Positions 5,939 to 25,024 of a stretch of DNA of 64,000 nt are shown piece by piece; within the stretch, counting starts at the first letter, position 1, and every line of letters begins with the position of its first letter. The notes under the pieces are model-generated. The model searched no databases, had not been told where the DNA came from, and saw nothing but the letters and a program-made list of their open reading frames with translations. The DNA comes from an uncultured Sunxiuqinia sp. (GTDB lineage Bacteria; Bacteroidota; Bacteroidia; Bacteroidales; Prolixibacteraceae). The position numbers and the translations under genes were made by a program. The DNA lies in contig NZ_CANLZV010000002.1 of NCBI RefSeq assembly GCF_947495665.1, forward strand, positions 434,001 to 498,000, in the 5' to 3' direction.

Positions 5939-5942
5939 CCTC

Positions 5943-8781: not shown

Positions 8782-8785
8782 AAAG

Positions 8786-8938
8786 ATGAAACGAAATAAA
8801 TTTCTCGCACTGTTAAAAAGAATGCTTCAAAAAGCAGCATCAGTTCTCCATCCTTTGTGGTGGGTAGTCATTCCATTTCTGCTGTACTACGTGATTCAGC
8901 TATTCAAGTATTCTATGTTCACCCCAATAATACTGTAA
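8786..8938 (+). CDS. Small single-span membrane protein, 50 aa
   Basis: A complete short ORF fits between the VirE-N gene (4 bp before) and the DUF3987 gene (2 bp after its stop). It starts MKRNKFLALLKRMLQKA with many basic residues, then a hydrophobic span WWVVIPFLLYYVIQLF (25-40) and a short tail. Positive N-terminus and one span suggest an inner-membrane protein with cytoplasmic N-terminus. Tight spacing, ATG starts and a purine-rich upstream region support translation. I know no family. A membrane protein between replication genes could tether the complex or be a small toxin-like peptide, which is speculation. Confidence 0.5.
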   Translation: MKRNKFLALLKRMLQKAASVLHPLWWVVIPFLLYYVIQLFKYSMFTPIIL

Positions 8939-8940
8939 CC

Positions 8941-10785
8941 ATGAAAAAGAAATTCGAAGTAAATCACTGGTTGCAGCAAACCGAACCAAAAGAAAACCCG
9001 TCAGCGTCTAAAAGACCTGACGGCGTTTCCAAGTCAGAGGATTTAGAGGTAAATAATAACGACGTTGAAACACCTGCACTGAGCGACGTCGAAGTGATAA
9101 TTCAACGACTTGAATCTGCTAATACCGACATTACCGCCAATTATGCCGATTGGCGGGATATTGGCTTTGCCTTTGCCGATGAGTTTGGCGAAGCTGGCCG
9201 CGATTACTTTCACCGTGTCAGCCGATATTATCCGGGCTATTCGCAGCATATTTGCGACAAGCAGTACGATAATTGCCTGAAATCCTCCGGCCACGGTGTA
9301 ACCATTAAAAGCTTTTTCCACCTGGCACAACAAGCCGGAATTAGTTTAATAACCACTGGCCCCAATTCCTCCCCTAATTTTAGGGGAGGTGGCCCCGAGA
9401 ACTCGGGGACGGAGGGGTATAACCCGTCAGCGTCTCCCAGACCTGACGGCGTTTCACAGGAGTACACAGAACCCGAAACCATCTTCAACACCCCCCGCAT
9501 CCCAGCAGAACTCTATTCCCAGCTTCCCGAAATCCTTCGCGAAAGCTGCGAAATGTTTGCCGATGCCATTGAAAAAGATGTATTCTTAATTGGTGCAATT
9601 TCTGTGATTAGCGGATGTTTACCCAATATCGAGGGCATATATTTTGATGAACCGGTTTCCGCACATCTTTATTCCTTTATTACAGCCCCTGCCGGGTCAG
9701 GTAAAGGAAAACTAAAATGGGCCAAATACTTTGGCCTGAAAATCCATAAATCGATGGTACAGCAATCCATCCGGGCAAAAGAGGAATATGAACAGGAATT
9801 GGAAAATTATAATAACCTCAACAAAAATCAACGTCAGGGTGTGGAACGCCCCAGGGAACCAAAACGGAAAATGTTTTACATTCCGGCCAACAGCAGTGCT
9901 TCTGCATTTATCCAGGCGTTGTCCGATAACGATTTCAAAGGTATCATCTTCGAGACTGAAGCCGACACCTTAGCCGCAACTTTAAAACAGGATTGGGGAA
10001 ACTTTAGCGATGTATTGCGTAAAGCCTTTCACCACGAAAGCACCAATATGTTTCGGCGAAAAGACAACGAACATATCGAAGTGGAAGACCCGCATCTTGC
10101 AATCGTACTTTCAGGAACGCCAAAGCAAGTACACAACATGATGCCCGATGTCGAAAACGGCTTATTCAGCCGCTTTCTATACTACGCATTCGAGGATTAC
10201 AGCGACTTTAAAAATCCTTTTATTTCCCACCAAAAGGTGAATTATACCGATTTCTTTGAAGAAAAGGGAAATCAGATTTACGATTTACACCAAATCCTCA
10301 TCAATCAGCCAACGCCCATTCAATTTTGCTTTACAGCTGAACAAGGCCAAGTTTTTACAGAACAATTCAATGCGCTTTACAAACGCAACCGTATGTTATT
10401 GGGTAACGATTTTAACGCCAACAGCCGACGTTTGGGTTTAATTACTTTTCGTATTGCAATGGTGCTTCGCACCCTTCGCATACTCGAAGACGGCGACTAT
10501 TCCAATCCGTTAATTTGCAATGAAACCGATTTTCAGACGGCCATTCAAATTGCTTTTACACTGGAAAAACATGCTATCGCAGTTTTCCAGAATCTGCCAA
10601 ACAATGACTTGAAAGGCGTTAAGCTGAAATTCTATAACGCCTTACCGGATAACTTCAACCGGCAAGGCTATTTGTCAGTGGCAAAAGACCTGGACATTAA
10701 AGAAAAGACCGCCGAAAAATACATCGGTCAATTCAAAGACAATGGCTTACTTGAACATGAGCACAACAACTACACAAAAACGTAG
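8941..10785 (+). CDS. PriCT_2-DUF3987 replication helicase-like protein
   Basis: 614 aa from ATG 8941. A longer in-frame start at 8857 would run through the 50-aa ORF and is rejected. Residues about 50-135 resemble primase C-terminal domain PriCT_2 (YADWRDIGFAFADEFGEAG). Residues 190-560 are DUF3987, with the P-loop APAGSGKG (249-256), an acidic IIFETEADTL block and VLSGTPKQV. The end is a winged-helix-like region (LSVAKDLDIKEKTAEKYIGQ). Proposed role: superfamily-3-like helicase/primase of the island. The linker (140-170) is encoded by palindromic repeats, and the 3' end carries one copy of a 24-bp direct repeat, so the C-terminus has probably been altered. Confidence 0.75.
   Translation: MKKKFEVNHWLQQTEPKENPSASKRPDGVSKSEDLEVNNNDVETPALSDVEVIIQRLESANTDITANYADWRDIGFAFADEFGEAGRDYFHRVSRYYPGYSQHICDKQYDNCLKSSGHGVTIKSFFHLAQQAGISLITTGPNSSPNFRGGGPENSGTEGYNPSASPRPDGVSQEYTEPETIFNTPRIPAELYSQLPEILRESCEMFADAIEKDVFLIGAISVISGCLPNIEGIYFDEPVSAHLYSFITAPAGSGKGKLKWAKYFGLKIHKSMVQQSIRAKEEYEQELENYNNLNKNQRQGVERPREPKRKMFYIPANSSASAFIQALSDNDFKGIIFETEADTLAATLKQDWGNFSDVLRKAFHHESTNMFRRKDNEHIEVEDPHLAIVLSGTPKQVHNMMPDVENGLFSRFLYYAFEDYSDFKNPFISHQKVNYTDFFEEKGNQIYDLHQILINQPTPIQFCFTAEQGQVFTEQFNALYKRNRMLLGNDFNANSRRLGLITFRIAMVLRTLRILEDGDYSNPLICNETDFQTAIQIAFTLEKHAIAVFQNLPNNDLKGVKLKFYNALPDNFNRQGYLSVAKDLDIKEKTAEKYIGQFKDNGLLEHEHNNYTKT
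8998..9023. repeat. Palindromic repeat inside the DUF3987 gene, copy 1
   Basis: CCGTCAG (8998-9004) pairs with CTGACGG (9017-9023). The same 7-bp arms recur at 9424-9449, and in both copies the bases read in frame as PSAS-RPDGVS. Confidence 0.7.
9368..9449. repeat. Three adjacent palindromes encoding the interdomain linker
   Basis: CCTCCCCTAA/TTAGGGGAGG with a 2-nt loop (9368-9389), CCCCGAG/CTCGGGG with a 2-nt loop (9393-9408), and CCGTCAG/CTGACGG (9424-9449, second copy of the 8998 repeat). All are translated in frame as a Gly/Pro/Ser-rich linker between the PriCT_2 and DUF3987 regions. They resemble interspersed palindromic repeats rather than protein-driven sequence. Confidence 0.7.
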
Positions 10786-11374: not shown

Positions 11375-11659
11375 ATGTTTTTGGGAAAACGAATAAAAGA
11401 ATTACGGGAAGAAAAAGGACTACTTCAACGCCAACTGGCTGCCGAACTGGAAATTGATTCTCCCATGTACAGCAAAATAGAGCGCGGCGAACGCCGGGCA
11501 AAACGCGAGCAGGTGATTAAGCTGGCTGATTTGCTGGAAACCGACAAAGATGAACTACTCACCTTATGGCTGGTCGGACAGATTAACGAGATTGTGAAAG
11601 ATGAAAGCACTGCTTTAAAAGCCATCGAGATTGTAAAGGAACATTTGAACAAACAATAG
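11375..11659 (+). CDS. XRE-family helix-turn-helix regulator of the defence operon
   Basis: 94 aa. Residues 3-58 are a Cro/C1-type HTH (LGKRIKELREEKGLLQRQLA, then MYSKIERGERRAKREQVIKL), followed by a helical tail. It ends 2 bp before the methyltransferase gene. XRE proteins directly upstream of Mod genes often act as controller proteins that delay restriction until the host DNA is modified. That role is inferred here from position. An operator was not found, since the upstream region is full of repeats. Confidence 0.8.
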   Translation: MFLGKRIKELREEKGLLQRQLAAELEIDSPMYSKIERGERRAKREQVIKLADLLETDKDELLTLWLVGQINEIVKDESTALKAIEIVKEHLNKQ

Positions 11660-11661
11660 TA

Positions 11662-13485
11662 ATGATGAACAAGAAAGAAATCCTCGACAAAATAAAAGAC
11701 CTTGAAGGGCTAAACAACGACGAAAAAGCCTTTTTAATTAACCTGGTGAACACCAAGAAAAAATACGGCCTGGTGTGGGAAGACAAGCCCGAAGATGTGG
11801 AAGAAGAGTTACGCACCAAACTTCCGGTATTAAAAGAGGTAAAAGAACGCGCCATAGTAAACGACACCGAAACCGAACATTACCCCAACCACATTCTTAT
11901 TGAGGGCGATAACCTACACGCGCTTACTGCGCTTACTTTTACGCATGAAAATGCAATAGACGTTATTTATATTGACCCACCCTACAATAGAGGAGAAAAT
12001 GATTTTATTTATAATGATGATTATATTGACAAGGATGACACATTTAGACATAGTAAATGGCTATCATTTATGTCAAAGAGACTGAAAATTGCTAAAAGGT
12101 TACTAAGCGATAAAGGAGTTGTTTTTATATCAATAGACGACAATGAGTTTGCCCAATTAAAAATGTTATGCGATGAGATTTTTTTTGAAAAGAACTTCAT
12201 TGAATGCTTTCAGTGGGAAAAAACCCAAAGCCCTTCGAATCTCTCAAAAAAATCGAAAAAAAGGCTTGAATATGTTTTGTGTTATGAAAAATCAAAAACC
12301 GATTTAAGATATACTGGACTAGTTCAAGAAAATCCTAATGATAACCCTCTGTTAAAAAGTAATAATAATTTCAAAACATTAGAATTTCCTAAAGAGGCTG
12401 TCGAATGTAAAATAAAAGGAAATCATATTCTTGAACCAGGAGAATATGGGACTGCAAAAAATAAAGTCATTTTAAAAAATAGACTTGAAATTAAAAACGG
12501 TAAGTTCTTAAATAACTTAATTTTAGAAGGTAAATTTGTTTGGACTCAAACAAACTTAGAGGACGAAATCAAGAAAAAAACTAGAATAATCTTTAAAAGT
12601 AAAACATTAGCTCCTCGATATGATAAATTAAATTATGCTCCTGAAGTTCCACCAAATATTATTGATGAAAGGTGGGGTGTTGCAACAAACGATGTTGCAA
12701 AATCAGAACTTGAAGGATTTGGTATTTATGATTTTGATTATCCAAAGCCAGTCTCACTAATAAAATATCTCATTTCTTTCTATCCAAAACAAAATTTCAC
12801 TTTACTTGACTTTTTTGCTGGCACTGGAACAACACTTGAAAGCACAATTGACCTTAATTTAATCAATGGAAACAGACAATGTATTTTGGTCTGTAACAAT
12901 GAAAAAAAGAATGATACTATAAATTACATTCCAGAAACGATTACTTATCAACGTGCAAAAAAAGTCATAAATGGATATACAAAGACCAATGGAGAATACG
13001 TGGAGCCAAGAAACAAAAATAATTTGCGTTATTATAGGTGTGATTTTACAGAAAGAGAGCCGTCACTTCCAAATAAACGCCAACTAACACTTTTAGCTAC
13101 TGAATTACTTTGCATTAAAGAGGACTGCTACAAAGAAATTACTTCTGAGCTGGCCTCCAAAAATTGGCACAAATTGTTTACCGGAGCCAATAGCCACTAT
13201 GTGTACATCATTTACGATGATGCATTTATTGAAGAGGCCGTAGAACTTTTAAAAGCTTTCATTACCCAAAACCCGCAAGCACAAATTAAGGTATATGTAT
13301 TCTCCAATGGGCAATATGCTTACGCCGAAGAGTTTGAAGAGGTAGCCGAAAACATCAGGCTGGCCGCTCTGCCCGATGCCATTTATAAAGCCTATCAATA
13401 TATTTTACCCAAACAAAACAAAGAATTTATTCCAGAACTGGAAGAAGAAACCCCTGTTGAATTTGATAACGGAATTGAAGCATGA
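11662..13485 (+). CDS. Type III-like DNA adenine methyltransferase (Mod)
   Basis: 607 aa (606 from the second ATG at 11665). It has beta-class N6-adenine methyltransferase order: motif IV DPPYN at 105-109, then a variable target-recognition region, then the AdoMet-binding motif DFFAGTGTT at 383-391. An N-terminal dimerisation part and a C-terminal domain rich in acidic residues complete it, as in type III Mod subunits. It should methylate one adenine per site, choosing the sequence both for protection and for cutting. The middle (about 11950-13070) is clearly richer in A+T than both ends, suggesting a swapped core. The Res gene overlaps by ATGA at 13482. Confidence 0.88.
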   Translation: MMNKKEILDKIKDLEGLNNDEKAFLINLVNTKKKYGLVWEDKPEDVEEELRTKLPVLKEVKERAIVNDTETEHYPNHILIEGDNLHALTALTFTHENAIDVIYIDPPYNRGENDFIYNDDYIDKDDTFRHSKWLSFMSKRLKIAKRLLSDKGVVFISIDDNEFAQLKMLCDEIFFEKNFIECFQWEKTQSPSNLSKKSKKRLEYVLCYEKSKTDLRYTGLVQENPNDNPLLKSNNNFKTLEFPKEAVECKIKGNHILEPGEYGTAKNKVILKNRLEIKNGKFLNNLILEGKFVWTQTNLEDEIKKKTRIIFKSKTLAPRYDKLNYAPEVPPNIIDERWGVATNDVAKSELEGFGIYDFDYPKPVSLIKYLISFYPKQNFTLLDFFAGTGTTLESTIDLNLINGNRQCILVCNNEKKNDTINYIPETITYQRAKKVINGYTKTNGEYVEPRNKNNLRYYRCDFTEREPSLPNKRQLTLLATELLCIKEDCYKEITSELASKNWHKLFTGANSHYVYIIYDDAFIEEAVELLKAFITQNPQAQIKVYVFSNGQYAYAEEFEEVAENIRLAALPDAIYKAYQYILPKQNKEFIPELEEETPVEFDNGIEA

Positions 13486-15770
13486 TACAACTAAGAACAT
13501 ACCAGGAAGAAGCCGTAAACGGTCTGCTTAAAGACACATATGCCCTACTTAACCGCCCCGGAGCGCAACACAAAATGGTTTTCAAAGCCCCCACCGGAGC
13601 CGGAAAAACAGTAACCATGGCAGCTTTTTTAGATAAACTTGCTGCCGAATTACCCGACCGCACCGATGTTCCTAAAAACAAAGTAGCCTATATATGGTTT
13701 GCACCTAACCAATTGCATTTGCAGTCGTATCTGTCACTAAAAAGTTACTTTGAAGAATTACGGTCAATAAAGCCCATTCAGTTCGAGGACGTTACCGATG
13801 GTAAATTACATCCCAACGAGGTGCTGTTTGTGAACTGGCAATCCGTTAATAAGGCAAACAATATTTACGTAAAGGAAAACGAGCAAGGCAAAGACCTCAT
13901 AAAATTTGTGTATGGGGCCATGCTTGATGATACGGCAATTGTCTGCATTTTAGATGAGGCCCATTACCATGCCAACGGCAAAAAAGCAAAGGAACTGCTC
14001 ACAAAAATTCATGCTAAAATTGAAATTGATGTATCGGCCACTCCCCTTTTCCATTCCGATTACGGCCACACCATAAAACGGCATGAGGTTGTTGATGCCG
14101 AAATGATTAAAAAGAATGTGGTGCTTAACCCTGCGTTAGACCATTCCAATCAACACGGCAAATCACTAAATCAGGTATTATTGGAGGAAGCCTTAAAGAA
14201 AAGGAAGGAATTACATGAGGCTTATCAAAAAATTGGTTCCAACATTAACCCACTGCTTTTGGTACAATTGCCCAATGAAAGCGCCACCGAAAGCGCTTTA
14301 GACAAAGAATTGATTGAAGAAGTTGAAACGTTTTTAGATGTAAAAGGTATCTCTACTCAAAACACAAAATTAGCCGTATGGCTAAGCAATACCAAAACCA
14401 ACCTCGAAGGTTTGGAGGAGAAAGATTCATTAACCGAAGTGTTACTATTCAAGCAAGCCATTGCCTTGGGCTGGGATTGCCCCAGAGCTGCGGTTTTATT
14501 AATATTCAGAGAAATTAATCAGCAGCATTTCGGAATACAAACAGTAGGCCGTATTTTACGAATGCCCGAACAAAAACACTATCCGAACACGATTTTAAAT
14601 TACGGCTATGTATATACCAATTTAAGCAAAGACCTTATTACTATCGTTCAGGAAGACATGGACTACATTGTACAATACGTAGCCAAACGAATTGATAATT
14701 ACCAGTCAGTTGCACTCTCCTCTTACTTCATCAATACCCGGTTAAACCGTAACCGCTTGGGTTCAAAATTCAGACGTTGTTTATACGAAGCAGCAGAACA
14801 GTTTTTCGGCATTACGCTCGATGCAACCCAAACAAATAACGTAGGATTGTATCACTATAATGCTCAAAAAATGGCTGAAAAGTTCATTGAGATGAACATT
14901 GAACAGATTGAAATACCAATACCAAAAGATTTACAATTAAATACAGAGATTGGAGTTAACTATGTGCAGCAAAAAGAGCGCTTTGCCAAAACAACCAACG
15001 AGTTAAATATCCTTTTTCGTCAGTTTTGCCGTGCCAACATTGGAGATTATGCAAAGGTAGATTCCACTCCGGTTCTGGAAATGGCGCTAAAAATGCTCTT
15101 TGAAGAATATTTTATCCTGGATGAGTTTAAGGCCATCAAAATAATTTTATTCGAAATTAACAAGTCAAAATTCATTGAGCTAATCGACATTGCCTTGGAA
15201 AAACATCAGGTTTTATTGCACAAAAAAGCGACTGAAGTATCAAAACAAGTGGAGGAAAGTACCTGGGATGTGCCGGAGGAACGTATTTTTAATGATAATT
15301 ACCATGAACGTCCGGTTGAAAAACACGCCTTAGTTCCATTTTATGAGCAAAACAGGGCAAGCAATCCGGAGAAAGAGTTTACCGCATTTTTAGAAGCCAA
15401 TAAAGCCCATTTGGAATGGTGGTACAAAAACGGCGATAAAAACAAGGAAGACTTTGCCGTTACCTATGAGGACCACAATGGAATTACCCGCGGTTTTTAT
15501 GTGGATTTTGTAATAAAAATGAAGTCGGGTGCCATTGCGCTTTTTGATACAAAGACACTGGATTCAGACCCGAATTTTGTAGCAAAACACAATGCACTGC
15601 ATCAATACATTAAAAACAAATCAGCCAACGATAAAAAATTAGTTGGTGGGGTTATCGTTCCAAAAGGAACACCGGATAACCGAACCTGGAAGTATGCCGA
15701 CAACCTGATAGACAGAGCCAATGACACAACGGGTTGGGTATCCTTCGAACCTTCGTTAGTAACTGCTTAA
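13482..15770 (+). CDS. Type III-like restriction helicase-nuclease (Res)
   Basis: 762 aa superfamily-2 helicase. Motif I APTGAGKT is at 36-43, motif II DEAH at 158-161, motif III DVSATP shortly after, and the second RecA domain has ALGWDCPRA and QTVGRILRMPEQ. The C-terminal domain looks like a PD-(D/E)XK nuclease: GFYVDF with Asp675, then LFDTK with Asp689 and Lys691. This is the architecture of type III Res subunits but shorter than the classical 950 residues or more. It should move along or switch on DNA when Mod sees unmodified sites. Translation is coupled to Mod (4-bp overlap). Confidence 0.85.
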   Translation: MIQLRTYQEEAVNGLLKDTYALLNRPGAQHKMVFKAPTGAGKTVTMAAFLDKLAAELPDRTDVPKNKVAYIWFAPNQLHLQSYLSLKSYFEELRSIKPIQFEDVTDGKLHPNEVLFVNWQSVNKANNIYVKENEQGKDLIKFVYGAMLDDTAIVCILDEAHYHANGKKAKELLTKIHAKIEIDVSATPLFHSDYGHTIKRHEVVDAEMIKKNVVLNPALDHSNQHGKSLNQVLLEEALKKRKELHEAYQKIGSNINPLLLVQLPNESATESALDKELIEEVETFLDVKGISTQNTKLAVWLSNTKTNLEGLEEKDSLTEVLLFKQAIALGWDCPRAAVLLIFREINQQHFGIQTVGRILRMPEQKHYPNTILNYGYVYTNLSKDLITIVQEDMDYIVQYVAKRIDNYQSVALSSYFINTRLNRNRLGSKFRRCLYEAAEQFFGITLDATQTNNVGLYHYNAQKMAEKFIEMNIEQIEIPIPKDLQLNTEIGVNYVQQKERFAKTTNELNILFRQFCRANIGDYAKVDSTPVLEMALKMLFEEYFILDEFKAIKIILFEINKSKFIELIDIALEKHQVLLHKKATEVSKQVEESTWDVPEERIFNDNYHERPVEKHALVPFYEQNRASNPEKEFTAFLEANKAHLEWWYKNGDKNKEDFAVTYEDHNGITRGFYVDFVIKMKSGAIALFDTKTLDSDPNFVAKHNALHQYIKNKSANDKKLVGGVIVPKGTPDNRTWKYADNLIDRANDTTGWVSFEPSLVTA

Positions 15771-15781
15771 TTCTTTAAACT

Positions 15782-16000
15782 ATGGGTAGAAAAGGACTGG
15801 ATACACTGTTTGTACACTATGGCATTCGTAAAGAGGACATGGATGTTATTGAGGCTATTTGTGCCGAATTTGATGTGGAACCGGAATGGTTGAAAGAACA
15901 GATTCTAAAACCATACCACGAGGCAAAAATTCGCAACGAAGAATTGGACGAAAAAACCTTGAGTAAAGTTATCGAGAAAGCACTCCTAAAAATCAAATAG
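15782..16000 (+). CDS. Small helical protein of the modification operon, 72 aa
   Basis: A complete 72-aa, charged, all-helical protein (VHYGIRKEDMDVIEAICAEF, then EPEWLKEQILKPYHEAK). It sits 11 bp after res and 2 bp before the DndD-like gene, so it is firmly inside the operon. I cannot assign a fold. I have an unverified memory of a database product name, DNA modification system-associated small protein, for ORFs in this setting. DndE in phosphorothioation systems is also a small helical protein next to DndD, but I see no sequence match. A bridging or adaptor role is an inference. Confidence 0.7.
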   Translation: MGRKGLDTLFVHYGIRKEDMDVIEAICAEFDVEPEWLKEQILKPYHEAKIRNEELDEKTLSKVIEKALLKIK

Positions 16001-16002
16001 CC

Positions 16003-18000
16003 ATGTTAATCAAACGAATAAAAGCCAAAAATTTCAAAACCTATCTCGATTTGGATTTGGATATTTCAACGGAACCAGACCGGCCAATTGTACTTATTGG
16101 CGGTGCAAACGGTGGTGGAAAAACAACGTTCTTTGATGCCATCTATGGCGCACTTTATGGCTTGAAAATTTCTACTTCAAAACATTTTAAAGAGCTTTTA
16201 AATGCCGGTGCATTAGGCGTTGAAGAAGAGAAAATTCAATTGGAGCTTCACTTTTCAGGCAAAGTGCTTAATCAGGAACAGAGCTACGTGCTGACAAGAA
16301 CGTACATGTTGAATCCGGAAAGTAAACCGGTTGAGAGTGTTCGCTTAAACATGAATGGCACTATTTTTCAATATGGTTCTGCAACACCCATTGCTCAACG
16401 AGCAGAACAGGAAGCCCAGGTAAATAAAATAATCAAAGCCAATTTACCTGAAGAACTAAGTCGTTATTTCCTTTTTGATGCTATGGAGGCTGGTTCCCTG
16501 CTTAAAGAAGACCGGCTCAACAGGGTGATAAAAGAGAATATTGAAAATGTAATGGGATTCAATAAATACCTTTCACTTGCCAACGTATCGGAAAAGCTCA
16601 CCCAGGATTATACGGCTCAACGGTTAGACCTGGAAAAGGAAAAGAAAGAGTATTTAGAGTTAATTACTAAAAAAAGTAAATTGACTGAAGACCTTAATTT
16701 AAAGAAAGACGAATTGCAGATGGCTTTAGCATACTCGGTTTCCAACAAAGAAATGTACGACAAGCTAAAAGCCGGATTTAATCAGGAATCAACAATCAAT
16801 AATAAGATTGCTCAGTTGGAGACTGATTTGGATAACCTGCATAAAAGAGAAAAGTTGTATAAAGATGAAGCGAATGAGTTTGCTTCAAACATCGAAAATC
16901 ATATCTGCTTACCCAAATTAGCAAGTGCCTTTAAGAATGAAATATCACTTGTATTCAAAGAAAGAAACGATACCGGAAGTTATTCAGCAGAGCAGGTAAG
17001 TAATCATTTATTGGAAGATGTTATTTCAAAAGCGATTAATTATTTAACTGAATCGGGTTACCAGTTATCAGGGGTTTCGGTTACCGAAGTTTCTGAAATC
17101 GTCTTAAAACGATTGAAAGAAAATGATACCTCTTTAAAATATGATTTTTTCGAACCTTCAGAATTAAGAGCTTTAGAAAAATTAGCTTCCGAAAATTACA
17201 ACAATCCATTTCCCGGCTTACAGCAAAAAAAGATTGAAATGGACATTAGCATTGCAAATGCTACTAAAATTGAGCAACAAATAAGAGATTTAAAAGAGCA
17301 GGTTTCCGGCAACGATTTCTCTATTCTAAAGGCTTATGAGGATAATGAATCGAAGATAAAACGACTGGAAAGCGAGGAGAAGGATTTAAAGAAAGAGATT
17401 GAAAAAATCCAGAAGAAAATCCATACTTATGATATTCCAACCAACGAAGAACCCGACCCGAAATTTGAATTATTGAAGAGGCTTCAACCATTTTTCGAGA
17501 AAGTTGCAAATACGCTGTTAAAAAGCAAGAAAGAGCAGATTCAATCGAAAATGAAAGAAGATTTAAATGCCAATTTAGCGGCCTACAAAGATGTAATTAG
17601 TCGGGTGGAATTATCTGAAGACTTAAAAGACTTAAACTTTAGCATCTACCATAAATCGGGAAATGAAATCTATTTAAGCCAACTTAACACGGCTTCAACG
17701 CAGGTGGTGGTTCAGGTTTTATTAAAAGCCCTGCACGAGTATGGCGATTACGACCCTCCGGTAATGATTGATACCGTAATGGGGGTGTTGGATGAAACAA
17801 GCCGGAGTACCCTGCTGGAAAACTATTTTCCTGAATTATCGCATCAAACCATTTTATTGAGTTCCGATAGTGAAATACGACCTTCAACTGATTTAGTGAA
17901 GATTGAGCCATTTATTTCTAAAACCTTCACATTAAACAGAGATAAAGAACTTCAAAAAACGCATATCGCAGAAGGATATTTTAACCAACACATTAATTAA
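16003..18000 (+). CDS. DndD-like SMC/RecF-type ATPase
   Basis: 665 aa. It starts with a RecF/SMC head: IKAKNFKTY, then Walker A GGANGGGKTT at 33-42. The block LPEELSRYFLFDAMEAG (about 150-165) is characteristic of DndD. Two coiled-coil arms (about 200-290 and 420-490) flank a hinge without a CxxC zinc hook. The C-terminal head has the Walker B-like region PPVMIDTVMGVLDETSR near 586-602. Where DndD and SMC proteins have a LSxGxxQ signature, this protein reads QLNTASTQVV, lacking the glycine. DndD supplies ATP energy in DNA phosphorothioation, but no DndA, DndB or DndC gene is nearby. Confidence 0.75.
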   Translation: MLIKRIKAKNFKTYLDLDLDISTEPDRPIVLIGGANGGGKTTFFDAIYGALYGLKISTSKHFKELLNAGALGVEEEKIQLELHFSGKVLNQEQSYVLTRTYMLNPESKPVESVRLNMNGTIFQYGSATPIAQRAEQEAQVNKIIKANLPEELSRYFLFDAMEAGSLLKEDRLNRVIKENIENVMGFNKYLSLANVSEKLTQDYTAQRLDLEKEKKEYLELITKKSKLTEDLNLKKDELQMALAYSVSNKEMYDKLKAGFNQESTINNKIAQLETDLDNLHKREKLYKDEANEFASNIENHICLPKLASAFKNEISLVFKERNDTGSYSAEQVSNHLLEDVISKAINYLTESGYQLSGVSVTEVSEIVLKRLKENDTSLKYDFFEPSELRALEKLASENYNNPFPGLQQKKIEMDISIANATKIEQQIRDLKEQVSGNDFSILKAYEDNESKIKRLESEEKDLKKEIEKIQKKIHTYDIPTNEEPDPKFELLKRLQPFFEKVANTLLKSKKEQIQSKMKEDLNANLAAYKDVISRVELSEDLKDLNFSIYHKSGNEIYLSQLNTASTQVVVQVLLKALHEYGDYDPPVMIDTVMGVLDETSRSTLLENYFPELSHQTILLSSDSEIRPSTDLVKIEPFISKTFTLNRDKELQKTHIAEGYFNQHIN

Positions 18001-18004
18001 CACC

Positions 18005-19597
18005 ATGGGAACAATTACATTACAAAATATACGGCAATCCGAGGGGCTCATGGAGGCTTTGGTTCCACTCAAATCAAAACTGGAGGAAAAGCTAAACTTA
18101 AAAGAATACAAAGCTGAAAACAAACCAATTTCAATAAGTAACAATCTATTGCAGCGATTAACGCTATCGGCCGGATTAAGTTTAAGCAACAAAAGAGCGA
18201 TTGGTGAAGTTGAAAAGGTAGTTATATCAAAAACCGGATTGCGCATTCATGAAACCACTTTTTCGAGATTTGACCTTCAGGATACATGGTCTGCGCTATT
18301 AAAGTTTCGGTACAATCATTTAGATATTGACTGGTCGAGCGCAAGTTTTAAAAGTCGAATTATCAATTATGAAATGCTTCAGGGGTTGTCATTTTTAATG
18401 ACCAACGACAATTTAGATAATTGGCTGAATGTGAGTGCTTCATCATTAGCAAAATCGCACAGTACGATACCGTTCCTTAACTTAACCATTGGCTCCTATG
18501 AAGATGATATTCCGGCCAATTTGAACTTAAATGGTCGAAATATTCCAAACACACAGATATTAATTGCGGGTGCTACTGGTTCCGGTAAATCAAATTTATT
18601 GGCAGTTCTAATGAGCGAAATTAGAGGGTTGACGGTTGAATCAGCATATCCGGTGAACTTCTTATTCTTTGATTACAAAGGTGAATTTTCAGACCCATCC
18701 AATCGCCATTGGTTTTCCTTTTTTGAAATTGACGAAAATTCAATTTTAGACCCAATTAAATCGCCACTTCCCTTTTCTCCCTTTAAAGATTTTAGCGGAA
18801 GAACTCAAAACGAAATTAACCTTTACGCTTCGGAAATGGCTAATGCCTTATGTGCCATTGACAATGCCCGTATTAGTGCGAATATGAGCAACCGCCTTTC
18901 GGAAGCTGTTATCAACGCTTATCGAAGAACAGAAAATCGTCCGATAACTTTTGAATTGATATTGGAATCGTATCAAAATCTTCAAACGGACAAAGACCGG
19001 CAAAAAGATGACAGTGTAAAATCGGTATTGAAACAACTAATAAGGAACAACTTGTTTGCAGAAGTTGACACAATTAATCTAATATCTGATTCATACATTG
19101 TTAAAATGGACAGTTTCCCGAAAGATGGGCCATTGGCAAAGGCCATTGTATTCTTTATCATTTCAAAGCTCAATACAATTTATGAAACTTTGCCCAAACA
19201 GGCTGTGAGTGATGAATGCGTTGAAATCAGGCACTTTACCATTATTGACGAAGCGCATTACATGTTAGATTTTGACAATAAGCCATTGCGTGATTTAATT
19301 GCTGTTGGAAGAAACAAAGGGCTAAGCATCATTTTGGCAACTCAAAACATGGATAGCTATAAATCAAAATACTTTGATTTTTACGCCAATGCGCAGTATC
19401 CCCTAATTATGAAGCAACAGTCAATCACGGATTCAGTAATTAAGGATTTGTTTGGTGTTTCAGGTTACGAATTTAATGAGATTAAGGAGGCTATATCGAG
19501 TCTTTCCCTGGGTGAATTAATCATTAAAGACCCAACCGCTATCGCATTAGGCATGGGTAAGAAGTTCAAGAAAATAAAAACCTCTCACTTAATATAA
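18005..19597 (+). CDS. HerA/FtsK-like ATPase with DndE-like N-terminal region
   Basis: 530 aa. Residues about 35-145 look like DndE: LLQRLTLSAGLSLSNKRA, a Thr-Gly strand, then WSALLKFRYNHL and EMLQGLSFL. This match is by eye and moderate. From about 165 the protein is a HerA/FtsK-type hexameric ATPase, with Walker A AGATGSGKS (187-195), FLFFDYKGEF, Walker B FTIIDEAHYM (about 409-418) and a sensor ILATQN. HerA-type motors in defence systems thread DNA or drive a nuclease. A fused DNA-binding DndE module would target it to nicked or modified DNA. It follows the DndD-like gene by 4 bp. Confidence 0.7.
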   Translation: MGTITLQNIRQSEGLMEALVPLKSKLEEKLNLKEYKAENKPISISNNLLQRLTLSAGLSLSNKRAIGEVEKVVISKTGLRIHETTFSRFDLQDTWSALLKFRYNHLDIDWSSASFKSRIINYEMLQGLSFLMTNDNLDNWLNVSASSLAKSHSTIPFLNLTIGSYEDDIPANLNLNGRNIPNTQILIAGATGSGKSNLLAVLMSEIRGLTVESAYPVNFLFFDYKGEFSDPSNRHWFSFFEIDENSILDPIKSPLPFSPFKDFSGRTQNEINLYASEMANALCAIDNARISANMSNRLSEAVINAYRRTENRPITFELILESYQNLQTDKDRQKDDSVKSVLKQLIRNNLFAEVDTINLISDSYIVKMDSFPKDGPLAKAIVFFIISKLNTIYETLPKQAVSDECVEIRHFTIIDEAHYMLDFDNKPLRDLIAVGRNKGLSIILATQNMDSYKSKYFDFYANAQYPLIMKQQSITDSVIKDLFGVSGYEFNEIKEAISSLSLGELIIKDPTAIALGMGKKFKKIKTSHLI

Positions 19598-19598
19598 A

Positions 19599-19712
19599 AT
19601 GACAATAATAAAATCCACTGAAAAAGAAATCTTAAATCGTTATGGCGATATAAATTCTATTGCCGACGACAGTGTGGAGGAAATGCGAATGATAAGGGAG
19701 GTTTTAAAATGA
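19599..19712 (+). CDS. 37-aa ORF coupled to the AlbA_2 gene
   Basis: A short complete ORF begins 1 bp after the HerA stop and ends in an ATGA overlap with the next start (19709-19712). The peptide is acidic and helical (STEKEILNRYGDINSIADD) with no membrane segment. Overlaps on this pattern usually mean translational coupling, so it may be a real small protein or a leader that sets translation of the next gene. No family recognised. Confidence 0.4.
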   Translation: MTIIKSTEKEILNRYGDINSIADDSVEEMRMIREVLK

Positions 19713-21421
19713 GACCCGAAGATTTACATAACATTCTGGAAGAACTGATTGCATACCCGGCAGAAACCGAATGGATTGAATTTAAGTTGGGTGCCGGAAG
19801 CATCACCAATGACCAAATTGGTGAGTACATCTCAGCCATGAGTAACGGTGCCACCATCAAAAACAAAACCTTCGGTTATTTGGTATGGGGAGTACACGAC
19901 AAAACTCATGAAATCAAAGGGACCAACTTTCAGTTCTCCACAGCCAAGCAAGGCAATCAGGATTTGGAACTTTGGGTTAGAAACCTGCTCCATCCCAAAA
20001 TCAATTTTGCCATATTCGAGTTCGATTATCAGGGTAAAAACATGGTGTTGTTGCGCATCCCGGCAGCTAAAGGAGAACCTGCGCACTTCAAAAAAATACC
20101 ATACATCCGCATTGGTAGTAATAAAACCGATTTGCGAAACCACCCAAACTTTGTACGCTTAATTTATAATTCGCTTGAGGACTGGAGTGCCGGTATCATA
20201 GAAACGGCAACACTAAACGATTTGGATGAGGAAGCCGTCCATGTGGCAAGGGAAAAATTCAAAGAAAGAAGTACCCGTGCATCATATTATAACGAGATTG
20301 ATTCATGGGAACCCGAAAAGTTTCTCGACAAAGCAAAAATTACCATCAACGGGAAAATTACAAATACAGCAATCCTTTTGTTAGGAAAAGAAGAATCATC
20401 ACATTATTTATTACCTGCGTTGAGTGAGATTACGTGGAAACTGGAAACCGAAGAAAAAGCCTATGAACATTTTGGCACACCACTTTTGCTCAATACAACA
20501 AAGGTTTTGCAAAACATCAGAAATGTTAAATACAAGTTTTTTCCCGATAACGAATTACTGGCGACCACGGTTAATAAATACGATACCCGTACAATTTTAG
20601 AAGCCTTGCACAATTGCATTGCGCATCAGGACTATTCCATGCACAGCCGGATAATTGTAACTGAGAAAATCGACAAGCTCATATTTTCAAATGCAGGTAG
20701 TTTTTTTGAAGGGAATCCTGATGATTATTCAATAGGTGATAAAACTCCTGAACGATACCGGAATCCATGGTTGGCGCAGGCAATGGTCAACCTCGGTATG
20801 ATTGACCGACTGGGGTACGGCATTCATACCATGTTTCTTTCGCAGAAAAACAGGTACTTTCCGTTACCTGATTACGAATTATCGGAACCACAAAAAGTAG
20901 TGTTACAAATTTACGGTCATGCTATCGACGAGAATTATTCCAAACTATTAATCGAAAATAAAGATTTGCCACTTTCAAGTGTGGTCTTATTAGACCGTAT
21001 TCAGAAAAAGTTACCTGTTACCGATGAGGCAATTAAGATGCTGAAGCAACGAAAACTGATTGAAGGACGAAAACCCAATTATTTTATTGCTGCCCAGGTT
21101 GCAACGACAACTGACGATAAAGTTACATACATCAGAAATAGAGCCTTTGATAAAGAATATTACAAAGCAATGATTCTTGGATTTATAAAGCAATACAAAG
21201 AAGCTGCTCGCTCTGATATTGATAATCTTTTGATTGACAAACTATCTGATGTTTTAACGGCTGAACAAAAACGGAATAAAATCCGAAACCTGCTTTATGA
21301 AATGTCCAAAAAAGACGGTACTATTTTTAATGCCAGTTCTTCGACTGCAAATCCGGTTTGGATGTTGTCTAAAAATGCTGATTTTAAGATAAGAAAAGAT
21401 AGAGATTTAGATAAGGAATAA
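19709..21421 (+). CDS. AlbA_2 (Schlafen-type) domain ATP-binding protein
   Basis: 570 aa. The N-terminal 130 residues are an AlbA_2/divergent AAA-4 domain (TEWIEFKLGAG, IGEYISAMSNGA, LVWGVHDKTHEIKG). The middle has the HATPase_c_4-like block EALHNCIAHQDYS and ERYRNPWLAQAMVNLGMIDR. Winged-helix regions follow at about 430-560 (LPVTDEAIKMLKQRKLIEGR). Such proteins bind DNA or RNA and occur in many defence islands as regulators or RNA-cleaving effectors. Schlafen-type nuclease activity is established for some relatives, but here it is unknown. It is the last gene of the operon. A 172-bp gap separates it from the Argonaute pair. Confidence 0.75.
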   Translation: MRPEDLHNILEELIAYPAETEWIEFKLGAGSITNDQIGEYISAMSNGATIKNKTFGYLVWGVHDKTHEIKGTNFQFSTAKQGNQDLELWVRNLLHPKINFAIFEFDYQGKNMVLLRIPAAKGEPAHFKKIPYIRIGSNKTDLRNHPNFVRLIYNSLEDWSAGIIETATLNDLDEEAVHVAREKFKERSTRASYYNEIDSWEPEKFLDKAKITINGKITNTAILLLGKEESSHYLLPALSEITWKLETEEKAYEHFGTPLLLNTTKVLQNIRNVKYKFFPDNELLATTVNKYDTRTILEALHNCIAHQDYSMHSRIIVTEKIDKLIFSNAGSFFEGNPDDYSIGDKTPERYRNPWLAQAMVNLGMIDRLGYGIHTMFLSQKNRYFPLPDYELSEPQKVVLQIYGHAIDENYSKLLIENKDLPLSSVVLLDRIQKKLPVTDEAIKMLKQRKLIEGRKPNYFIAAQVATTTDDKVTYIRNRAFDKEYYKAMILGFIKQYKEAARSDIDNLLIDKLSDVLTAEQKRNKIRNLLYEMSKKDGTIFNASSSTANPVWMLSKNADFKIRKDRDLDKE

Positions 21422-21593
21422 GATAACAAAAAGACAAAAGAATTAACTGTCAGTATTTTACACAAAGAGCATCAAATGACTTCAAGATAGAAATTAGACA
21501 TTCTTAGACAAGCAAAGAGATGAAAATAAAACCATTGAAAAAGCATTTTATGGCAAGCATAAAATAAACATCGGTAAAAAATAACTCAACACA

Positions 21594-22496
21594 ATGAAAC
21601 TTTACACAAAAACCAAAAACAACATCACGCTACTAAAGGAAGTCCCGTTCAAGCTTGAAAAAGACATCCAAAACTTGTTTGAATCCCAACTGTCAGAATT
21701 GGTGGGTTTAAAGTTGGTTAAATCCGAATTTACCATCAAAAACAAACGCATTGATACGCTGGCCTTCGACCCGCAAAACAAAGCGTTCATTATTATTGAA
21801 TACAAACGCTCAAAGAGCAATAGCGTAGTCGACCAGGGCTTTACTTATCTGAATTTAATGTTGGAGAACAAAGCCGATTTCATTGTCGAATACAATGAGT
21901 CTTGCAAAGATAGCATCCAGCGTAAAGATGTGGACTGGTCGCAAACCCGCGTGATATTTGTTTCTACCAGCTTTACCGAAAACCAGAAACTGGCGACCAA
22001 TTTTAAAGACATTGCCATCGAGCTATACGAAGTAAAACAATACGAAGGTGAGATAATCGCAATTAATCCCATTAAAAAGTCTTCGTCTGCAACCAGCATT
22101 CAACCGCTAACAGAAAAAGATGAAGCAATCAAGAATGTAACCCGGGAAATCAAAGTTTATTCAGAAGAAGACCACCTGGCCAACAAATCCGAAGAAATAA
22201 CGGAATTGTATGAAGCATACAAAGATGCCATTTTAAATCTTGCAGATAATATTGAGATACAAGCCCGTAAAGATTATATAGCCTTCAAAAAGAACAGCAA
22301 CATAGCAGACATCACTATCCAGCGAAAAGGACTAAAAATGTGGATTAACTTGAAAAAAGACAATCTCGACGACCCCAAGAAAATCACCCGCGATGTATCC
22401 GAAACCGGACACTGGGGCAACGGCGATTACGAGTTATTAATTACAGATACGGACAATTTAGAATACATAATGAGTTTAGTGAAACAAGCAATTTAA
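21594..22496 (+). CDS. PD-(D/E)XK nuclease with DUF5655-like C-terminus, Argonaute-associated
   Basis: 300 aa. The N-terminal half has the restriction-nuclease core: Asp54 in KRIDTLAF, Glu69-x-Lys71 in IIIEYKRSK, and Gln81-x3-Tyr85 in DQGFTYL, with an acidic helix before it (Glu23/Glu30). This is a full RecB-like active site. Residues 200-300 match a DUF5655-like domain (QRKGLKMWINLKKDNLDDP, then GHWGNGDYELLI). The Argonaute gene starts 11 bp later. Inactive long-B Argonautes are known to be paired with such nucleases (BPAN systems) that degrade DNA and kill or arrest the infected cell. I infer that role here. Confidence 0.8.
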   Translation: MKLYTKTKNNITLLKEVPFKLEKDIQNLFESQLSELVGLKLVKSEFTIKNKRIDTLAFDPQNKAFIIIEYKRSKSNSVVDQGFTYLNLMLENKADFIVEYNESCKDSIQRKDVDWSQTRVIFVSTSFTENQKLATNFKDIAIELYEVKQYEGEIIAINPIKKSSSATSIQPLTEKDEAIKNVTREIKVYSEEDHLANKSEEITELYEAYKDAILNLADNIEIQARKDYIAFKKNSNIADITIQRKGLKMWINLKKDNLDDPKKITRDVSETGHWGNGDYELLITDTDNLEYIMSLVKQAI

Positions 22497-22507
22497 AATC
22501 CAACGCT

Positions 22508-24592
22508 ATGACAGATTCAAAACACATCATTAACGTTCTCACCTTCTCGCATCCCGAGAAAGAAAAAACTTTTGGCTTTAAATTGAAAAAAGCAAACGGT
22601 CATAGCCCTTTACGAAAGGCAGAGTTCCCCAGGGAATTGTGGGCAAAGCATCAAAAAGATTTATCAAATACACAATACCTCTATTGCGATTTTTCCACAA
22701 CAGACAATTGCGATTATGTAATTCCGGTTGACCTTACTTACAGCATCTATTTTGCAAAACACTATTATCACTTCCAGATTGCGCAGTATTTTAAGAAAGT
22801 TGCCCATGTAGTGCACCCAAATTTTATTAATGCTGCAACCATTTGGTTTGAAAGCTCAAGTGAATCAACATCAGAATACACGCTCTATTACAAATTTACA
22901 CTTGCTGTTCGCCTGGCAATGATTAGCGACAAGCCGGAGTTAATTGTTTCATTTGATGGTACTTCCAAAGTTTTAAAGAAAAACCTTCTGCAACTATCTT
23001 CCGAAGACATCGACACTGGGTTAGCAACCTGGATGGTATCAAATGGGGAGCTTGTACGAAACGATGAAAACTTACCCGAAGACTTTAACAATCATCTTGA
23101 TGAATATTACCCTGTATTGAATTTTGAATTGGCTGACGCCCTCGGATTTCCTCCGTTGGTGAAAACCAATAAAGACAAATATGCCAGCTATTTTAAAAAC
23201 ATAGATGGATTTTTGAATAAATACCTGAATACCGAAGAATTTAAAAAAGTAATCCCCCACTCCGGCACATGGCACGAACTGGAATCTGTTTCATTAACTT
23301 CTGAAGGTACGAGTTTGTTGAAATTCGGTCGCGGAACACATACCGACCCTTATGAAGGCTTAAAGGCTTTTAAACCTTGTAAACCTGTGCCTCCCGGACG
23401 CTATCGATTCTTCTTTATCTGTCATGAAAAGGATACGAAAATTGCCAATTTATTTCATCAATATTCAAAGAGAAAACAAGGGTACATTGACTTTAGTAAA
23501 TTCTTATCGCTGCCCCTGGTTTATGATGATAAATTACACATTACATTCTCTGATTATAATAACCCTCTCGACGAAATAAAAGATAAATTGTCAAAGGCCG
23601 AATTACAACCAAATACAAATTATTTGGCGGTGTATATTAATCCATCTTATAATTATAAAGCTGGCCACGACAAAGAAAATTTTTACTATAAAATAAAGCA
23701 GCTCCTTTTATACTATAAGATAAGCACACAGGTCATTTTGCGTGAAAATATAACCAAGGACAATTTTCAGCATAGTGTAAGAAACATTGCTGTAGCCACA
23801 TTGGCAAAATTAGGCGGGATACCCTGGCGTTTAGACCGCGAAATAAACAACGAATTGATTGTCGGAGTTGGTGCATTTAGAACCAGAAGGTATAACACGC
23901 GCTATCTCGGAAGCACTTTCTGCTTTGCCAACGATGGACATTTTAAAGGTTTTAACGTGCTTCCGGCAGATAATCACAAGCTACTGGCAGGCGCAATACG
24001 GGAAGCAATAGAAAAATATAAAGAGCAGCACGAAAAAACCGAAAGACTTATAATCCACTTTTACAAGCGGATGAGTAATAAGGAGATTGTACCAATAATC
24101 CGGCAGTTAAAATCCATCGGCAATAACATTCCGGTTATAATTGTCACTGTAAATAAAACAAAATCAAGCGACCTGGTATTGTTTGACAAAGATTACGACC
24201 GCAAAATGCCATACAGCGGAACATACATCCCTATTGGAATGGACAGCTACATTCTTTGCAACAATACCCGTTATAAGCCAACTTTAAACGGCGAACACAC
24301 GGAAGAAGAAAGAGAAGCTGAAAGGTTACAGTTGGAAAAACAATTAAAATCGTTTCCATTGCCTGTTAAGTTGCACTTACAGTCAACCGATGAAAGCATA
24401 ATCAACGACCAGGAAGAAGTAAAGAAATTAATCGACCAGGTATATCAGTTCAGCCGCATGTACTGGAAGTCCGTTTCGCAGCAAAGTCTTCCGGTAACAA
24501 CCAAATACCCTGAAATGGTGGCCGAAATCTTCCCCCACTTCGTAGGCGGCAAAATACCCGAGTTCGGAAGAAATAATTTGTGGTTTTTGTAA
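22508..24592 (+). CDS. Catalytically inactive long-B-type prokaryotic Argonaute
   Basis: 694 aa with N, PAZ-like, MID and PIWI regions. MID features: YYKIKQLLLYYKISTQVI and the following helix, usual for 5'-end guide binding. PIWI features: LAKLGGIPWRL, ELIVGVGAFRT, RLIIHFYKRMSNKEI, IPVIIVTVNKT and the end SLPVTTKYPEMVAEIF. In active Argonautes the strand corresponding to IVGVGAF carries the first catalytic Asp; here it is Gly455. The second position (IIHFYKRMSN) has no Asp either. So it should bind guide and target without slicing, and trigger the nuclease encoded upstream. Length and inactive PIWI suit the long-B clade. Confidence 0.85.
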   Translation: MTDSKHIINVLTFSHPEKEKTFGFKLKKANGHSPLRKAEFPRELWAKHQKDLSNTQYLYCDFSTTDNCDYVIPVDLTYSIYFAKHYYHFQIAQYFKKVAHVVHPNFINAATIWFESSSESTSEYTLYYKFTLAVRLAMISDKPELIVSFDGTSKVLKKNLLQLSSEDIDTGLATWMVSNGELVRNDENLPEDFNNHLDEYYPVLNFELADALGFPPLVKTNKDKYASYFKNIDGFLNKYLNTEEFKKVIPHSGTWHELESVSLTSEGTSLLKFGRGTHTDPYEGLKAFKPCKPVPPGRYRFFFICHEKDTKIANLFHQYSKRKQGYIDFSKFLSLPLVYDDKLHITFSDYNNPLDEIKDKLSKAELQPNTNYLAVYINPSYNYKAGHDKENFYYKIKQLLLYYKISTQVILRENITKDNFQHSVRNIAVATLAKLGGIPWRLDREINNELIVGVGAFRTRRYNTRYLGSTFCFANDGHFKGFNVLPADNHKLLAGAIREAIEKYKEQHEKTERLIIHFYKRMSNKEIVPIIRQLKSIGNNIPVIIVTVNKTKSSDLVLFDKDYDRKMPYSGTYIPIGMDSYILCNNTRYKPTLNGEHTEEEREAERLQLEKQLKSFPLPVKLHLQSTDESIINDQEEVKKLIDQVYQFSRMYWKSVSQQSLPVTTKYPEMVAEIFPHFVGGKIPEFGRNNLWFL

Positions 24593-24606
24593 AATTGCAT
24601 TATAAC

Positions 24607-25020
24607 ATGAATGAACAAATTAATAATCAATTAAAACACCGGAATATCAAACCAACCGCCATGCGCCAGTTGGTTTTGCAGGTTTTGACTGAACAAAAAT
24701 CTGCCATAAGTTTACCGGAACTGGAAAACAAATTTGAAAAAGCAGACAAGACCACATTATACCGTACACTAAAAACATTTGAGGAAAACAAACTTATCCA
24801 CAGCATCGATGACGGAACAGGTTCCGTAAAATATGCTTTGTGCCGGGAAGCCTGTGAATGCCACCCCGAAGACCTTCATGTTCATTTTTTATGTGCCGTT
24901 TGTGGACAGACTTATTGCCTCAATGACATACCCGTTCCAACTATTAATTTACCGGCAAAATTTCAGCTCGAAAGCGTGAATATGGTTGTAAAAGGAGTTT
25001 GTTCCAATTGCGACAAATAA
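24607..25020 (+). CDS. Fur-family metal-responsive transcriptional repressor
   Basis: 137 aa from ATG 24607. A longer frame from 24580 overlaps the Argonaute end and is not preferred. Residues 1-80 are the winged helix (PTAMRQLVLQVL, KTTLYRTLKTFEENKLIH). The C-terminal part has the metal sites HPEDLHVHFLCAVCGQTYC and the final VCSNCDK, two CxxC pairs for structural zinc. It heads the metal-efflux block and the gap after it holds a perfect palindrome over a promoter, so it most likely represses the efflux genes until metal (zinc, copper or similar) is high. Which metal is sensed is not readable from sequence. Confidence 0.87.
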   Translation: MNEQINNQLKHRNIKPTAMRQLVLQVLTEQKSAISLPELENKFEKADKTTLYRTLKTFEENKLIHSIDDGTGSVKYALCREACECHPEDLHVHFLCAVCGQTYCLNDIPVPTINLPAKFQLESVNMVVKGVCSNCDK

Positions 25021-25024
25021 ACTC

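Follow-up and report, generated by a model that had tools for sequence, protein, structure and literature searches.

A 64,000-nucleotide stretch of DNA from an uncultured Sunxiuqinia sp. (contig NZ_CANLZV010000002.1, positions 434,001 to 498,000; hereafter the window) carries an operon that joins a type III-like restriction-modification (R-M) pair to relatives of the ATPases of DNA phosphorothioation (Dnd) systems. The original prediction, made from the sequence alone, had placed eight open reading frames (ORFs) here on one strand, separated by 1-11 bp or overlapping by 4 bp; an ORF check of the window reproduced all eight exactly (11375-21421, plus strand), with intergenic distances of 2, -4, 11, 2, 4, 1 and -4 bp in gene order. 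The genes are listed below with the matches that identify them, those of PADLOC being to single-protein profiles and not to system rules.

11375-11659, + strand: XRE-family regulator, probably a local controller and not a core gene (Pfam HTH_31, 49.6 bits)
11662-13485, + strand: Mod, type III beta-class DNA methyltransferase, 607 aa (Pfam N6_N4_Mtase, 109.8 bits; PADLOC MTase_III, 248 bits)
13482-15770, + strand: Res, superfamily 2 (SF2) helicase with a C-terminal PD-(D/E)xK-like nuclease, 762 aa (Pfam ResIII, 63.3 bits; PADLOC REase_III, 48.8 bits)
15782-16000, + strand: Sp72, small protein of the Sp-DndD family, 72 aa (PF20306, 33.4 bits, cut-off 27.2)
16003-18000, + strand: DndD-like ATPase of the ATP-binding cassette (ABC)/structural maintenance of chromosomes (SMC) type, 665 aa (PADLOC DndD, 199.5 bits; PbeC, 165.4 bits)
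18005-19597, + strand: HerA, a DndE-like N-terminal region (residues ~1-150) joined to a HerA/DndH-type translocase ATPase, 530 aa (DUF87, 38.3 bits; PADLOC DndH, 81.4 bits; mad8, 64.3 bits)
19599-19712, + strand: 37-aa ORF, doubtful as a gene (chance-level tblastn match only)
19709-21421, + strand: AlbA_2 + HATPase_c_4 protein, 570 aa, variable cargo (SLFN_AlbA_2, 71 bits)

The second and third genes have the sequence features that define a type III pair. Mod is a beta-class aminomethyltransferase in which DPPYN (residues 105-109) precedes FAGTGTT (residues 385-391) and a variable target domain lies between the two. In an alignment of 54 sequences DPPYN and FxGxG are at least 97% conserved and the middle region is unconserved; it is this missing conservation that delimits the target-recognition region, approximately residues 187-365 of the window Mod. 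Relatives in the PDB are 6k0w, EcoP15I Mod and Mbo45V. The sequence is compatible with either N6-methyladenine or N4-methylcytosine as the product, and adenine is the most likely target. Res combines SF2 helicase motifs with a C-terminal PD-(D/E)xK nuclease: among 61 sequences Walker A, DExH and the motif VI region are at least 90% conserved, and the nuclease residues E630, D675, D689 and K691 at least 97%. By sequence Res scores weakly as type III, with no match in a single-sequence phmmer search against PDB sequences of type III enzymes, and other SF2 helicases but no type III enzyme in a profile search of PDB sequences. An AlphaFold 2 model (predicted local distance difference test score, pLDDT, 83; predicted template-modelling score 0.59) gave EcoP15I Res (4zcf_C, E 8.3e-12) as the top PDB match by E-value in a fold search; type I HsdR chains come next, among other SF2 helicases, and the superposition on EcoP15I Res is loose over the whole chain (template-modelling (TM) score 0.33-0.39, root-mean-square deviation 13).

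The remaining three core proteins belong to Dnd-related families. Sp72 scores above the cut-off for PF20306 (Sp-DndD), which Pfam describes as a "small protein found in certain Dnd DNA modification systems", and residues G5, D7, F10, G14, R16, D19, I23, W36, L42 and H46 are at least 97% conserved among 65 sequences. Of 11 DndC proteins scanned, 6 match the Sp-DndD profile at their C-terminus, all below cut-off. When a model of Sp72 itself was compared with slices of DndC, the seven best were all C-terminal tails, two of them from the same gene; three lay above the HMMER inclusion line and three other tails were mixed with control slices. These similarities provide a lead that DndC may dock to DndD through its C-terminal tail and that Sp72 may be the free-standing counterpart of this tail. 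We therefore propose that Sp72 could serve as an adaptor between the front-end enzymes and DndD.

The DndD-like protein scores 177.6 bits against TIGR03185, under the NCBIfam cut-off of 245.85, and is thus a homologue and not an equivalog. Walker A and Walker B are conserved among 69 sequences and the RYFLFD block lies at residues 154-159, so that these motifs, like DPPYN and FAGTGTT, are present as originally read and conserved across relatives. The ABC signature, by contrast, is LNTASTQ in the window protein and [LM]SxGE in sulfur-system DndDs. The altered form, LN[TA]AS[KT]Q, was found in 68 of the 69 DndDs of the system and SxGE is kept in all 12 outgroup DndDs. In a FastTree phylogeny of 37 DndDs, 23 system members together with two orphans (loci L009 and L010, which nest inside the system DndDs) are split from the 12 others, sulfur-system ones included, by a long branch with support 1.0. 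No CxC or CxxC motif was found in the window DndD. For HerA, the AlphaFold 2 model (pLDDT 87) has the DndH C-domain as its top PDB match (7es4, E 1.2e-18, TM 0.60 by query length and 0.83 by target length), and the catalytic motifs are kept in 74 sequences. Residues 1-150 align with DndE (hhalign E 1.6e-4, probability 51%). The label DndE-like/HerA given originally is therefore borne out, with its DndE part modest.

We drew a locus set by scanning species-level genomes once with an alignment built on this HerA and kept the best 80 of 184 confirmed relatives (HerA 54-99% identical in the best segment). Because the scan was seeded by this clade's HerA, the result speaks for the clade and not for all DndD-HerA pairs. 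As labelled in the records, nearly all of the 80 loci come from Bacteroidota of several orders; the five others, all metagenome-assembled, are two Ignavibacteria, one Kapaibacterium, one Opitutales and one Alphaproteobacteria. Where at least 7 kb of upstream sequence is available (58 loci), the five genes Mod, Res, Sp72, DndD and HerA stand in the same order and on the same strand in 54 cases, which makes the arrangement more than chance. The original prediction had called for a search for Mod-Res-DndD-HerA neighborhoods and had regarded the gene set as a coherent unit; that search returns the unit for five genes. Neighboring genes overlap or lie within 60 bp at most loci (DndD/HerA 75 of 77, Sp72/DndD 62 of 71, Res/Sp72 53 of 67, Mod/Res 44 of 62). 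The wider gaps scanned are filled by inserted genes of the RhuM family, AbiD, a YhcG nuclease, an OLD-like ATPase and a Panacea antitoxin, families known as hitchhikers of defense operons, and by two proteins without a Pfam match. In L053, L054 and L078 more than one Mod-like ORF precedes Res, and in L054 one seems split in two.

The same loci set aside the outer genes, which the original prediction had counted as members. XRE models match in 3 of 80 loci (L032, L036 and L039), and of 50 loci inspected upstream of the Mod start, one has an XRE gene within 700 bp, L032 falling just beyond the limit. The 37-aa ORF gave a single chance-level tblastn match (E 0.68) in the subset of loci searched. 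AlbA_2 has one strong homologue in the 80 loci, in L044, where it sits between Res and Sp72, and one weak match (26 bits, L035). Rare or misplaced as they are, these three are not part of the functional set and we reject them as core genes; the functional core is the five genes at 11662-19597 and not the whole 9.9 kb.

The system is uncommon in evenly drawn genomes. DndD matches at E 1e-10 occur in 6 of the 395 genomes drawn from the phylum and in 10 of the 393 drawn from the order, the Sunxiuqinia genome included, and among these the system is present in G433, G520 and G415 and, broken, in G745. G433, G520 and G415 correspond to loci already in the 80-locus scan (L056, L062 and L080) and are not independent of it, and the contig of G520 is not long enough to show Mod or Res. 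Pontibacter arcticus carries two copies of the operon on one contig, about 74 kb apart, with identical core proteins (L063 and L064). A complete five-gene operon (L139:6283-14313) lies in a 15.6-kb record deposited as an unverified bacteriophage from human feces. Searches of viral contigs with the DndD protein gave 44 pattern matches, none confirmed. On plasmids, the DNA from Sp72 to HerA found no match, the HerA protein matched five records at just 22-24% identity, and the DndD protein matched 22 records, each at less than 60% identity and with under 80% of the query covered.

Phosphorothioation needs genes beyond DndD and DndE, and the original prediction of a methylation-based system would have been weakened by DndB or DndC homologues elsewhere in the genome. 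Profile searches of the whole assembly (99.95% complete) gave no match to DndC or DndB; DndA, indistinguishable from housekeeping desulfurases, was not searched. DndC is likewise absent from 25 of 28 draft or complete genomes with the operon, some copies of which are broken, and in the phylum DndC matches occur in 10 of 247 genomes, 6 of them above cut-off. The absence of DndC and DndB makes a methylation-based system, as originally predicted, the most likely one. DndD-HerA pairs that are more distant, their DndD being 24-32% identical to that of the window over the parts matched, lie near DndC in L012, L013 and L031, and others stand beside an uncharacterized front end in L014 and L030. At these two loci (L014:7687-13521 and L030:6786-12890) DndD-HerA is preceded by a 666-760 aa protein with sigma-r4-like and other DNA-binding motifs; L014 has a free Sp-DndD protein, and its front protein of this class has no PADLOC match.

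How the parts of the operon have been exchanged in nature bears on what each of them reads. For protein alignments, tree and distance tests we used only ORFs in set length ranges, leaving out split, truncated and over-long genes; collapsing near-identical HerA copies reduced 39 loci to 37 entries, the window included, and 36 entered the distance test, L084 being dropped because its Mod entry is a wrong-frame ORF (it is still in the motif alignment). Pairwise identity in the target region of Mod has a median of 20%, and the distances of this region are nearly unrelated to those of Res, Sp72, DndD and HerA (rho 0.02-0.10). Among the other parts rho is 0.84 for DndD-HerA, 0.71 for Sp72-DndD, 0.60 for Res-DndD and 0.43 for Mod core-DndD, and the correlations of the Mod core or Res with Sp72, DndD and HerA exceed all 499 permutations. 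Close relatives tell the same story. In 48 sequences with intact Mod and DndD, the window included, 14 pairs have DndDs at least 90% identical, two of which are identical copies; the other 12 pairs, which represent nine groups of relatives, share only background identity in the target domain (14-27%) and 58-90% in the rest of Mod. The target domain has thus been exchanged in nine of ten groups of close relatives, the tenth being a duplicate on one contig. In these pairs the DndE-like N-terminus is 95-97% identical in nine and 84-86% in two, and was unmeasurable for the window pair. The window and L097, for example, share 96% identity in Res, 100% in Sp72 and 96% in DndD, with 22% in the target domain.

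Exchange of the target domain with a nearly constant Res is normal for type III enzymes, as described for EcoPI and EcoP15I (PMC8259958), and what is added here therefore concerns DndD and HerA. Mod thus changes its specificity, and DndD and HerA do not change along with it. The most straightforward interpretation is that the Dnd-like part probably does not read the Mod site, and a DndD-HerA that reads Mod's target is disfavored. The idea of a "second checkpoint" in the original prediction is weakened to the extent that it meant reading of the same target. A second kind of exchange falls at the Res/Sp72 border: L041 and L082 share 92% identity in Res and 52% in DndD, L073 and L091 97% and 74%, and L082 and L091 46% and 85%. 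A whole front end differs in L111, where Sp72, DndD and HerA, 94-99% identical to those of the Flavobacterium relatives L082/L083, lie behind an SF1 (superfamily 1) helicase, a PIN-domain protein, a 212-aa protein and an AAA ATPase (L111:3-13121), with a UvrD-like helicase after them. L111, a putative combination of these parts, could be either a front-end swap or a new system.

We favor a model, to which we give a probability of roughly 0.55, in which the operon encodes a methylation-based R-M system of two exchangeable halves, a Mod-Res front and a Sp72-DndD-HerA engine at the back. It rests on computation: the gene set and its order, the intact catalytic motifs, the absence of DndC and DndB, and the exchange of target domains and of halves. 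From these we infer the methylated base, the adaptor and engine roles, the order of events and defense itself. We envision that Mod would mark one asymmetric sequence on host DNA and that Mod with Res would recognize the same sequence when unmarked. Sp72, DndD and the DndE-like/HerA fusion would form a DNA-handling engine with little or no site specificity of its own, which Sp72 would plug into the Mod-Res complex as the DndC C-terminal tail may do in sulfur systems. Once Mod-Res meets unmodified DNA, DndD could clamp or loop it and HerA translocate it, with the outcome that Res cuts or that replication of the invader is blocked, as reported for PbeABCD. The "restriction motor" of the original prediction is thus the favored reading, by analogy only: the functional claim would follow from the likeness to PbeABCD, and sequence alone does not carry it.

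Several observations weigh against this model. The loci were fetched with this clade's HerA, so copies without HerA could not appear, and even in this set Mod-Res is missing from L096, L105, L108 and L111. The G745 locus (L028) has split copies of DndD and HerA and only a remnant of Res. The orphan DndDs at L009:8913-10979 and L010:6092-8251, in two genomes of one genus, belong to the clade, and the 12-20 kb inspected around them gave no match to Mod, Res, Sp72 or HerA. Res relatives (31-39% identical) lie beside Mod in 4 of 395 phylum genomes besides the window's own; at three of these loci (L117-L119) no Sp72, DndD or HerA was found in the 18-19 kb read, and at the fourth (L120) the contig ends just after Res, which makes it uninformative. 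DndC is present in 3 of the 28 operon-bearing genomes. Among the distances, rho for Res-Sp72 (0.40) is much below that for Sp72-DndD, the target-domain/DndD value of 0.10 was reached by 25 of 499 permutations, and shared host descent may add to all of these correlations, which carry no host-gene control. Among the 12 close pairs, L080/L086 and L080/L098 differ in Res too (52-53% identical). The similarity of the HerA N-terminus to DndE is modest, and that of Sp72 to the DndC tail is weak: 5 of the 11 DndCs have no Sp-DndD match at all, and hhalign gives a probability of 59% over just 24 columns. Finally, the altered signature suggests that the DndD ATPase may be slow or inactive.

Three other explanations have to be weighed against the two-half model. 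The back genes could form a separate layer, with a self-sufficient Mod-Res and a Sp72-DndD-HerA blocker of the DndFGH or Pbe kind triggered by unmethylated DNA or by Res activity. The DndH C-domain as best match of HerA, the recombination of the halves and the report that PbeABCD halts viral DNA without cleavage (PMC6459918; disputed in PMC10853773) all suit this view; neither DndF nor DndG is among the matches listed for the window proteins, however, and the co-occurrence of front and back in 54 of 58 loci and the Res-DndD rho argue for dependence, so that we consider it unlikely. Sp72-DndD-DndE/HerA could instead serve modification, loading or scanning DNA for a Mod that methylates poorly without it, in the way that DndD-DndE serve DndC. 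DndD-DndE belongs to the modification module of sulfur systems (PMC10853773), and two thermophile type III systems need Res besides Mod for efficient methylation (PMC8259958). We nevertheless regard this role as quite improbable: type III Mods generally methylate alone (PMC8259958), Mod-Res relatives do without these genes at three of the four loci read, L120 being the truncated one, and neither DndD nor the DndE-like region changes along when the target domains are exchanged.

It is also conceivable that an ordinary type III system came to lie by chance beside an unrelated Dnd-like cassette in a defense island. Plain Mod-Res pairs exist, other defense genes occur inside or beside the operon, and front and back halves recombine. 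Order and strand are kept, however, across several Bacteroidota orders and a few other phyla, and the distances of the Mod core and Res correlate with those of Sp72, DndD and HerA above every permutation; on the strength of the conserved loci we disfavor such stacking and consider it very improbable.

The two-half model has a broader form, which we put forward tentatively and hold to be doubtful as it stands: Sp-DndD, DndD and DndE/HerA could be a general restriction motor, agnostic to mark and sequence, into which self-marking enzymes plug through an Sp domain. The plug would be the DndC tail in sulfur systems, a free protein for the type III pair here, and the SF1-helicase/PIN/AAA front end would be a further case in L111. 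If this is true, sulfur-based and methyl-based immunity would be two front ends of one machine. If the two-half model is right, methyl-based R-M and DNA-sulfur immunity, separate fields, would be joined by a shared ATPase engine, which would help explain DndD and DndE homologues that occur without sulfur genes. The natural exchanges of target domain, front half and whole front end offer ready material for testing genetically which component recognizes the DNA and which one acts on it. According to the record labels, gut-associated as well as environmental Bacteroidota carry the operon, which could affect how they resist phages and how readily they are transformed.

The surroundings of the operon include further defense genes. 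A gap of 589 bp separates XRE from the preceding long plus-strand ORF (8857-10785). After AlbA_2 a gap of 172 bp leads to a separate gene pair (21594-24592), a DUF5655/HSDR_N-like nuclease-like protein (PADLOC PDC-S18, 457 bits) and an argonaute (PADLOC pAgo, 758 bits); operons of this type in L032, L034 (cut at the contig end) and L053 likewise have an argonaute homologue 3' of HerA. The stretch 2822-10785, with mnmE, a tyrosine integrase (4850-5938), a BT4734-like protein and a DUF3987/PriCT_2 protein, is the left part of a probable integrated element carrying the defense genes. A search for att-like repeats around the island found no exact repeat of at least 12 bp between 3900-4860 and 21400-26060, and none of at least 13 bp with 30000-37800. 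Farther on, 26053-30396 is a single 1447-aa ORF in which a resistance-nodulation-division (RND) efflux-type pump (ACR_tran) is fused to an outer-membrane efflux (OEP) domain, and at 37761-46488 a family 8 polysaccharide lyase adjoins a hybrid two-component regulator.

Each part of the operon has a counterpart in known systems. In a subset of sulfur systems DndD stands beside a DndE-HerA fusion of the clade-3 HerA/FtsK type (Rakesh, Aravind and Krishnan 2024, PMC10853773), and the pairing of a DndD-like ABC ATPase with a DndE-like/HerA protein is shared with the operon described here, which differs in the Mod-Res in front, the lack of a DndC or DndB match in the genome and the altered DndD signature. 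The order of a helicase-nuclease, a small protein, a coiled-coil ABC ATPase and a DndE-like protein is that of the PbeABCD/CxC systems (PMC6459918, PMC10853773), and we also saw it directly in L134, which has Sp-CxC. Defense there is likewise keyed to a DNA mark, and methylases lie near some of these systems; cytosine methylases occur with CxC systems, whose helicase-nuclease has been called "Type-I/III-like" (PMC10853773), a paper whose text otherwise mentions "type III" once, in a reference title. All four PbeABCD genes are reported to be needed, pbeA only in part, with viral DNA staying intact (Xiong 2019, PMC6459918); the genes have since been reannotated and DNA cutting argued instead (PMC10853773). 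The PbeA nuclease is of the PLD/HKD type, whereas Res is PD-(D/E)xK and gave no PbeA match at E 0.01; Sp-CxC and a CxC zinc hook there are replaced by Sp-DndD and a hookless DndD in the window, and the DndE-like region is here fused to HerA. Some type III systems that form N4-methylcytosine also carry an additional conserved ATPase gene (Murray 2021, PMC8259958), but this is one SF2 helicase-like gene upstream of mod, and not DndD and HerA downstream of res.

Type III enzymes act as Mod2Res1 complexes, and their cleavage requires two inverted unmodified sites. EcoP15I and the present operon share a Mod and a Res with standard motifs and target-domain exchange, EcoP15I Res leads the fold search, and the operon has three further conserved genes. 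Its Res is shorter than that of EcoP15I. With DndFGH it shares a HerA domain of the DndH type, but there is no large DndH protein here and no DndF or DndG among the matches listed. The methylation-associated defense system (MADS) combines a methylase with SMC-like and HerA-like ATPases and, to our knowledge, has no type III Res; HerA here matches mad8 at 64 bits, but the mad1-mad8 gene set is not matched (Res against mad8 15.6 bits, DndD weakly MAD3-like, the others at most weak). In the literature searched, among the matches listed, we found no description of the union of type III Mod-Res with DndD and HerA; Krishnan et al. 2020, which possibly shows it, lies outside that coverage. The word "undescribed" in the original prediction thus holds for this union and not for its parts, for DndD beside DndE-HerA, the Sp-DndD family (in Pfam), type III Mod-Res and the PbeABCD order are already known. 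Set beside these systems, the operon looks like a real and widespread variant.

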